From: Fidelibacterota bacterium
GTDB taxonomy: Bacteria; Fidelibacterota; Marinisomatia; SCGC-AAA003-L08; TS1B11
Length of the DNA stretch: 64,000 bases
Assembly: GCA_004124295.1 (NCBI GenBank)
Contig: SCKI01000001.1
Span: 1 to 64,000, forward strand
Direction of reading: 5' to 3'
This document shows positions 44,566 through 47,857 of this stretch, piece by piece (positions within the stretch are counted from its first letter, which is position 1; every line of letters starts with the position of its first letter). The notes under the pieces were generated by a model. It did not search any database. It saw nothing but the letters and a program-made list of their open reading frames with translations, and was not told the DNA's origin. Made by a program: the position numbers and the translations under genes.

Positions 44566-45081
44566 CTAAAGCTGCGCGCTGCCGGTTTCGAAGAAGTTCA
44601 GGACTTCCTTGCTGTGGGTGGTCACATCCACATCCTTTATGATGTGCAAGATCACACCGTCCTCATTGATGAGAAACGAGCGCCGGATGGCCGAGGGGTA
44701 TCTTCCCTGGGTACCGTACAGGCGGGCCACCTTTTCGCTCTGATCACTGAGTAGGGTGAAGGGAAGAGAGTACTTATCCCTGAAGGCTATATGCGACGCC
44801 GGTGAGTCGAAACTGAGCCCCAGGACAGCAATACCGGCTGACTGGTAGCCGGCATAATCATCGCGCAAGTCCTTGGCCTCTTTGGTGCAACCGGGCGTAT
44901 CATCGCGCAAATAAAAATAGAGCAGCACTCGCTGCCCCCGGTAATCGGAAAGGGTGTGTTCGATGCCATCCTGGTCAGGCAGGGTGAAGTCGGGGGCCAT
45001 TTCGCCAAGCGCAGGCCCTTGTGCCGTACCGATTGAGGCGAGGACCAGGACCAGTCCAAGGGTGGGCCAGAAATGTTTCAC
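44566..45081 (-). CDS. Secreted peroxiredoxin (Bcp/PrxQ type)
   Basis: 171 residues. Signal peptide (FWPTLGLVLVLASIGTAQG) then the AhpC/TSA fold; peroxidatic cysteine in RDDTPGCTKEAKDLRDDY. It reduces peroxides in the periplasm. A second cysteine five residues on (as PrxQ has) is missing, so it would work as a 1-Cys enzyme. GTG start overlapping the stop of the next peroxiredoxin gene upstream (GTGA). Confidence 0.92.
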   Translation of the reverse strand: MKHFWPTLGLVLVLASIGTAQGPALGEMAPDFTLPDQDGIEHTLSDYRGQRVLLYFYLRDDTPGCTKEAKDLRDDYAGYQSAGIAVLGLSFDSPASHIAFRDKYSLPFTLLSDQSEKVARLYGTQGRYPSAIRRSFLINEDGVILHIIKDVDVTTHSKEVLNFFETGSAQL

Positions 45082-45629
45082 GGCCCGGCTGCGCCCCGGA
45101 ACCGGGCCAGCACCTCCTGGCTGTGGGTGGCCGGGTCCACTTTTCGCAGAATGTCCAGCAGCTTTCCCGATTCGTCAATAAGGAATGATTGGCGCCGGGC
45201 AAAATTCAGGGCGCCTGCCGCGCCGTAGCGGGAAGCCACCTTCAGGCCGATATCTGCCAGCAGGGTAAAGGGGAGCTGATGCTCCTGCTCGAAAGCCTTA
45301 TGGGATTCCTCGGAATCACCGCTGATGCCCAGGACCACGATCCCGGCCTGCCGGTAATCGGCAAACTCGTCCCTGATGGCGCAGGCTTCGGTGGTACAGC
45401 CGGAGGTGAAATCTTTGGGATAAAAGTAGACCAGGACCTTTTGTCCCCGATAATCGGCCAGGGAGTGACTCTCGCCATTCTGGTCGTTCAGGGTGAATGC
45501 TGGCGCCATATCACCGGCGGCCAGTTCCTGCGTCGCTTGCTGGGCGCTGCATGCAGTCAGGGCCAACAAGACCGCCAGGGCCAGGGCGCCGGGAAGAAAA
45601 TTCTGTTTGATCTGATACATACGAAACAT
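45078..45629 (-). CDS. Peroxiredoxin lipoprotein (PrxQ/Bcp type)
   Basis: 183 residues as drawn; starting at the next ATG (45620) would give 180 and a better spacing from the GGAGG site. A lipobox (LLALTACSAQQ) anchors it, probably to the outer membrane. Peroxidatic and resolving cysteines five apart in KDFTSGCTTEACAIRDEF, the classic PrxQ arrangement. Overlaps and probably co-translates with the secreted 1-Cys peroxiredoxin; together with the selenoprotein 1 kb away this makes three peroxiredoxins. Confidence 0.92.
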   Translation of the reverse strand: MFRMYQIKQNFLPGALALAVLLALTACSAQQATQELAAGDMAPAFTLNDQNGESHSLADYRGQKVLVYFYPKDFTSGCTTEACAIRDEFADYRQAGIVVLGISGDSEESHKAFEQEHQLPFTLLADIGLKVASRYGAAGALNFARRQSFLIDESGKLLDILRKVDPATHSQEVLARFRGAAGP

Positions 45630-46623: not shown

Positions 46624-46795
46624 CGGTTCCATTGGTTGCAGGCCGAAGCCTGAGTGCGGGGCAATTTAGGCCGGCGTCCTGTCCGGCGCAATGGGTCCCC
46701 CGCCCCGCCTTGCCGGGAGCACACGCAGGCATGTAGATTTACGGTCCCGACACGAGGGCTAAATGATGCGCTACCTGCGGCGATAGGAGAAGGTA

Positions 46796-47266
46796 ATGGC
46801 ACTTCTGGAAATAGGGGCAAAGGCCCCCGATTTCACGCTGCCGGACCAGGACGGCAAAATGGTTTCCCTGGATGACCTGAAGGGCAGCAAGCTGCTGGTC
46901 TGGTTTTTCCCCAAGGCCAACACCCCCGGCTGAATCATGGAAGGCCGGGGATTCCGTGACGAATTCCAGCATTTTCAGGACCGCGGCATCAACATCATCG
47001 GGATGAGCGCCGATCCACCCGGGAAGCAGAAAAAATTTCACACGAAATACGGTTTCCCCTATCCGCTGCTGTGCGATGAGGGCCACGAGGTCCTGGAAGC
47101 TTACGGCGCCTGGGGCCCCAAGAAGCTTTACGGCCGGAACTATATGGGCATCGCCCGGATCAGCTATCTCATCAATGAGGCCGGCGAAGTGGTGAAGGTC
47201 TACCCGAAGGTGAAGCCGATAAGCCATCCCAAGCAGGTCCTGGCCGACTGGGAGGCGCTGGGCTAG
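46796..47266 (+). CDS. Selenocysteine-containing peroxiredoxin (UGA at the catalytic position)
   Basis: 156 residues with selenocysteine at residue 46. Peroxiredoxins of this type have PGC-T at the peroxidatic site; here the frame reads WFFPKANTPG, then TGA (46931-46933), then IMEGRGFRDEF and on through GYP-like FPYPLLCDEG and a normal C-terminus. The frame before and after the UGA stays open and well conserved, which a pseudogene would not explain. AGGAGAAGG is the ribosome site for the ATG at 46796. A stem-loop with a bulged U lies just downstream (see next entry). Without Sec insertion the product would stop after 45 residues. Confidence 0.9.
46935..46967 (+). promoter_or_regulatory. Bacterial SECIS-like element
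   Basis: Two alternative hairpins immediately after the UGA. (1) TCATGGAA (46935-46942) pairs with TTCCGTGA (46952-46959), loop GGCCGGGGA. (2) GGATTC (46949-46954) pairs with GAAT(T)CC (46961-46967), with a bulged T and loop CGTGAC starting 22 nt after the UGA, which suits the usual distance and the G in the loop's first two bases. Confidence 0.6.
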
Positions 47267-47380: not shown

Positions 47381-47857
47381 TCAAGGTACGTTATAACTCC
47401 ATAATTTTAAGTAATTGGCGATAGTCGATACAAGCACTAACAAGCCAAGTGCACCCAGTACCATTAATACGTATATGCTTAGATCCCATTTATAGCCGAG
47501 CCAAAGGAAAAAACTGTACGTAACGAGGTGCATCATTAAAACCGAATTAGTCGCATTTAACTGCCTAAATTTTTTATTCTTATACTGCGGACAGGCCTCG
47601 GGCCACTTATTATGTTGCGCCACCCAGTACAAAGTGTAGTGAACTTCCATCACCCACATGACGGCAGTTAAAAGCGCTCCAGCTATGGCTAGCGCTTGTT
47701 GAACCAGAAAACCAGGAACCAATTCGTCAAGACCGTACTGCCCAATTCCTGCTCCCACTAGGGTTAAGCCAGCGAGAAATAGGGTTAGAACCTTAAATCG
47801 CATACTCGCGTAAAATCGCATATTTTCCGCAATTTGATTTTTAACTGATTCACTCAT
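47381..47857 (-). CDS. Small multi-pass membrane protein, unknown function
   Basis: 158 residues with about four hydrophobic segments: FKVLTLFLAGLTLVGAGIG, GFLVQQALAIAGALLTAVMW, SVLMMHLVTYSFFLWLGY, and ILMVLGALGLLVLVST-like near the end. A charged loop with ACPQYKNKKFRQLNATNS divides them. I recognise no family. A GGAGG ribosome site precedes the ATG by about eight bases. Base use is clearly AT-richer than in the flanking genes, which suggests horizontal arrival. Possibly tied to phage or plasmid accessory function, but nothing specific supports that. Confidence 0.72.
   Translation of the reverse strand: MSESVKNQIAENMRFYASMRFKVLTLFLAGLTLVGAGIGQYGLDELVPGFLVQQALAIAGALLTAVMWVMEVHYTLYWVAQHNKWPEACPQYKNKKFRQLNATNSVLMMHLVTYSFFLWLGYKWDLSIYVLMVLGALGLLVLVSTIANYLKLWSYNVP

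Follow-up and report, generated by a model that had tools for sequence, protein, structure and literature searches.

A family of selenocysteine-containing peroxiredoxins of the COG1225/BCP type, with a TXXU motif, is represented by 43 genes among the Sargasso Sea sequences (PMC1088965), and the selenoproteins grouped as 'Peroxiredoxin (Prx)' comprise 91 genes in 78 organisms (PMC5029168). The locus analysed here resembles the known COG1225 proteins, as far as their description goes, in belonging to the same BCP family, in the TxxU (PxxxTxxU) motif, in the UGA at the peroxidatic position, and in a putative SECIS element located just downstream. It differs from them in its lineage and host, in its conservation throughout a class, and in the variable positions of the resolving Cys. 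The kind of protein is already known, and the present gene adds a member in a further lineage; searches of the literature on Marinimicrobia/SAR406 with selenocysteine (Sec) returned no record of it.

Two other groups of peroxiredoxins may be compared. PrxU (NCBIfam NF040737, 233 positions), the name of which we take to denote a selenocysteine peroxiredoxin, is likewise a thioredoxin-dependent peroxiredoxin, but of another, longer type; the protein described here scores 30.7 bits against its cut-off of 270, which rules out identity as PrxU. The BCP/PrxQ proteins 3gkk/5iiz and 5enu (presumably the BCPs of Xanthomonas and Burkholderia, respectively) belong to the same fold family by sequence, but their peroxidatic residue is Cys, whereas Sec is predicted here.

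The gene is located at 46796..47266 on the forward (+) strand of the window, i.e., the whole stretch of 64,000 nucleotides that was analysed. The reading frame extends from ATG 46796, which has a Shine-Dalgarno-like AGGAG on its 5' side (46785..46789, +, read from the sequence), to the stop codon TAG at 47264-47266, and it includes an in-frame TGA at 46931..46933 (+), corresponding to residue 46. When the TGA is translated as a residue, a 156-aa protein with U46 results, in which the active-site motif PxxxTxxU is intact (P39, T43, and U46, in PKANTPG-U). The whole frame, read through the TGA, matches PF00578 (AhpC-TSA; 8.1e-35, residues 6-134) and scores 156.9 bits against NCBIfam NF006960 (thioredoxin-dependent thiol peroxidase/BCP), above the curated cut-off of 140. 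In sequence comparison, solved BCP structures (best matches 5enu_A, 2.3e-27, and 5iph_A, 2.6e-23) align over nearly the full length, and their peroxidatic Cys falls on the TGA codon, as does the Cys of the orthologues in four related genomes (G058, G045, G051, and G047). These alignments bear out what the sequence-only reading had claimed, namely that the TGA stands exactly where the peroxidatic Cys should be and that coding is conserved on both sides of it. The UGA is almost certainly read as Sec. That the gene encodes a BCP/PrxQ peroxiredoxin with Sec as the peroxidatic residue, the UGA being decoded by SelB with the aid of a downstream hairpin, is considered very highly probable. The fast peroxidase activity that had also been proposed would be expected from membership in the family.

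To assess conservation, 60 related genomes, ranging from the same genus to the same class, were searched, and each orthologue was read at the DNA level. The codon is TGA in 40 of the 44 orthologues and Cys in the other four, where the counts are of genomes and not of independent events. The orthologue in the genus mate (74% identity) also has TGA. The full frame is kept and the codon is TGA or Cys, never a random base; a truncation or a random base in close relatives is what the sequence-only reading had named as evidence against it. Among the 40 TGA genomes, 39 have selA or tRNA-Sec above cut-off, and in the remaining one (G030) a fragment of selA lies at the start of a contig. Among the Cys genomes, G045, G047, and G051 belong to one family with genomes of 0.8-1.0 Mb that are 95-97% complete, and neither selA nor tRNA-Sec was found above cut-off in them. 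The fourth (G058) has Cys at this codon despite having both selA and tRNA-Sec. Two further genomes of the same 0.8-1.0 Mb family (G041 and G055) likewise have no selA and no tRNA-Sec above cut-off.

If the TGA were a true stop, the gene would be a pseudogene or would encode a truncated protein, perhaps with a restart at ATG 46937. A plain 109-aa ORF does begin at that ATG, directly after the TGA, but such a fragment would be without the active site. Moreover, 40 genomes with the TGA exactly at the peroxidatic codon keep an uninterrupted frame both before and after it, and the Sec machinery (selA, selB, and selD) is present. The class-wide exchange of TGA and Cys at this codon only refutes the true-stop reading, and its remaining probability is negligible. 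Automatic annotation would end the gene at the UGA or begin it at ATG 46937, and the active site would be lost.

The reading as Sec calls for a SECIS element, and a candidate apical hairpin is located at 46948..46967 (+), immediately after the UGA. It consists of a 7-bp stem, GGGAUUC/GAAUUCC (46948-46954 with 46961-46967), and a 6-nt loop, CGUGAC (46955-46960), with G and then U at loop positions 2-3. There are 21 nt between the UGA and the loop, so that, counted from the UGA, the loop starts with the 22nd base. The bSECIS rules, in the portion quoted in PMC13188914, specify a loop of 3-9 nt, a stem of 4-16 bp, a G at loop position 1 or 2, a distance of 16-37 nt from the UGA, and an MFE of ≤ -7.5. 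By these quoted rules the hairpin conforms, with a loop of 6 nt, a stem of 7 bp, G at loop position 2, a distance of 21 nt, and -7.6 kcal/mol for 46945-46970. An Rfam search of the 46-48 kb region returned nothing relevant.

Folding of the single sequence was no better than that of dinucleotide shuffles (z from -0.04 to -0.55), and therefore the hairpin is significant by comparison only. Among the 39 TGA orthologues compared, the 7-bp stem pairs in 96.7% of the cells, and changes on both sides occur at two of its pairs (G-C to U-G/U-A, and A-U to G-C). A weaker lower stem (46938..46977, +; alignment columns 8-12 with 43-47), which may extend the SECIS, is paired in 83% of the cells, with changes on both sides also at two pairs. 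In the slide control, moving the partner destroys the pairing (the two helices taken together).

Because the protein motif GFRDEF is itself conserved in this region, a synonymous-recoding control was used, in which each of the 39 TGA genes was recoded with its own codon usage for the same protein. The mean fold is -6.4 kcal/mol for the real sequences vs -2.2 kcal/mol for the recodings (mean z -2.98), and z is below -1.2 in all 39 genes. The choice of codons is similarly constrained. TTC encodes the Phe of GFRD in 39/39 genes, even where the third-position GC is below 0.2, as against 127/337 at the other Phe positions of these genes (Fisher p 8.5e-16). The Arg of GFRD is encoded by CGU or CGG only, so that the loop receives the G[G|U] required by the published bSECIS model. 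Only 2-4 of the 7 stem pairs are retained in the Cys orthologues. Covariation, codon choice, and the loss in the Cys orthologues thus support the identification of the downstream hairpin as a SECIS element. The sequence-only reading had described two hairpins after the TGA, one of them with a bulged U and a loop starting 22 nt downstream. The position of the loop stands, but a bulged U is lacking in the conserved hairpin, and the second hairpin (46935-46959) overlaps the first, so that the two exclude each other.

The genome assembly comprises 2.55 Mb in 23 contigs and is 92.6% complete. In it, selB (336 bits) and selA (491 bits) lie side by side on contig 20, both above their curated cut-offs, and selD (390 bits, above the curated cut-off) lies on the same contig as the window. 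The sequence-only reading had named a genome free of sel genes as the finding that would speak against it, and three of the four genes were found. The selD gene has its own in-frame TGA at the catalytic position, in MHKRLTQFSHGSG-U-ACK (GSG-U-ACK), and is therefore a second selenoprotein gene in the same genome. It lies at G000:C1:579274-580212 (-), with the TGA at 580180-580182, and a strong fold (-23.1 kcal/mol for 48 nt) is predicted after its UGA. From selA, selB, and selD, the TGA-or-Cys conservation, and the constrained hairpin, the organism appears to make selenoproteins, as had been claimed.

No tRNA-Sec (selC) was found above the RF01852 cut-off in this 92.6%-complete assembly, while one was found above cut-off in 45 of the 60 related genomes. 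On inspection, the best RF01852 matches in the genome turned out to be tRNA-Ser, Leu, Trp, Lys, Tyr, and Phe, and a DNA pattern search for tRNA-Sec gave chance-like matches only. In the genus mate (G001), a tRNA-Sec with anticodon TCA adjoins an M50 protease gene, with gatB, miaB, and ribBA nearby (names read from ORFs). No match to the M50 protease gene was found in the genome studied here, and gatB, miaB, and ribBA of this block have no close match, the sole hit being a miaB relative of 29% identity. An 11-kb DNA query containing the selC block of the genus mate gave no hit in the genome, which DNA divergence alone could explain. Since gatB and ribBA, which are seldom dispensable, are missing together with selC, the block probably falls in an assembly gap, and the absence of tRNA-Sec is likely to have this origin.

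The missing tRNA-Sec would also be compatible with the UGA being read as another amino acid, through a general change of the code or a suppressor tRNA. Against this, TGA terminates ordinary genes within the window and is therefore not a general sense codon, and genetic codes in which it is one were rejected on this ground. In addition, the only tRNA-Trp met in a non-exhaustive scan of the genome has the anticodon CCA, selA, selB, and selD are present, and both TGA genes examined (the peroxiredoxin gene and selD) have the TGA at the catalytic Cys/Sec position. Decoding as any amino acid other than Sec is thus extremely improbable.

The genes around the Sec peroxiredoxin gene are syntenic with those of the genus mate: an EamA transporter, two Cys-type peroxiredoxins, an aldo-keto reductase, the Sec peroxiredoxin, a GNAT protein, a DegT aminotransferase, a ferredoxin-NADP reductase-like protein, and dnaA (names read from ORFs, except for the peroxiredoxins and the aldo-keto reductase). 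The Sec peroxiredoxin gene is therefore part of the core and not accessory, and the suggestion that the stretch is an accessory block is not upheld. The observations on composition behind that suggestion are nevertheless correct, in that the peroxiredoxin frame is host-like (GC 0.58) and a low-GC neighbour exists. The latter is an ORF of 158 aa (47381-47857, -; GC 0.42) with hydrophobic stretches and without a match in Pfam or NCBIfam. Of the whole block, it alone has no counterpart at this position in the genus mate, and it is perhaps a small recent insertion. Elsewhere in the window, a mechanical scan located three in-frame TGAs that join open stretches outside the long ORFs, at 2095 (+), 1995 (-), and 41529 (+).

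With regard to the mechanism, we infer Sec insertion, peroxidase activity, and the reductant of Sec46 as follows. The UGA at 46931-46933 would be decoded by Sec-tRNA-Sec brought by SelB, which would bind the hairpin at 46948-46967, inside the coding region right after the UGA. In the enzyme, which is presumably cytosolic, as no signal peptide is apparent, Sec46 would attack peroxides and be oxidised to selenenic acid. Reduction of the selenenic acid might then be direct, with a small thiol or thioredoxin as the reductant (a 1-Sec mechanism), or might proceed through Cys93.

Cys93 (LLCDE; codon 47072..47074, +) is the only Cys in the protein, position 46 being Sec in this reading, and therefore the only candidate resolving residue, as seen from the protein sequence and from the Cys columns over the 44 orthologues. 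The resolving Cys of BCPs is usually five residues after the peroxidatic position, and that of the Xanthomonas BCP is C84, which corresponds to residue 82 here. The protein has R51 and H82 at these positions and so lacks a Cys at either. Across the 44 orthologues, extra Cys residues occur at 51, 82, 93, or 70, and some orthologues (L045, L125, L126, L129, and L132) have no extra Cys at all. At least these must be 1-Sec enzymes or use an outside thiol. This variability raises the question of whether selenium makes a resolving Cys unnecessary.

Peroxiredoxin-like selenoproteins with a UXXC motif exist (PMC1088965), and on this precedent the Sec protein might act as a thiol:disulfide oxidoreductase and not as a peroxidase. 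The protein described here, however, carries PxxxTxxU, and its sole Cys, C93, is not close to U46 in the sequence; and it passes the BCP equivalog model while scoring 54 bits against the ResA model, far below the cut-off of 170. An oxidoreductase function is thus very improbable, and a peroxidase with Sec46 as the attacking residue is the preferred reading.

The orthologues form a clean natural experiment, in which Sec, SECIS, and sel genes were retained jointly in most genomes and lost jointly in the reduced family. They may represent a Sec-BCP lineage that spans the class. In this scenario, Sec was retained but the resolving Cys moved between 51, 82, and 93 or disappeared, and as a result many members, perhaps including this one, would be 1-Sec peroxidases; the genome-reduced family would have lost sel genes, SECIS, and Sec jointly and turned to Cys. 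The scenario as a whole is tentative, and we give it somewhat less than an even chance.

Other peroxiredoxins with TGA at the peroxidatic codon are also seen in the relatives. In L141 and L145-L153, a second type, that of window 44566-45629, has the TGA in PG-U-xKEAC, and in several of them the hairpin downstream can adopt a form with a GCGG-GUU-CCGC apex and, beneath it, a bulged U, an arrangement that resembles E. coli fdhF. The two copies of this second type in the genome studied here (window 44566-45629) have Cys. More distant peroxiredoxins, L138 (G049) and L142 (G046), have TGA in FFPKANTPG-U without GFRD after it, and constitute a further Sec peroxiredoxin type in the class.
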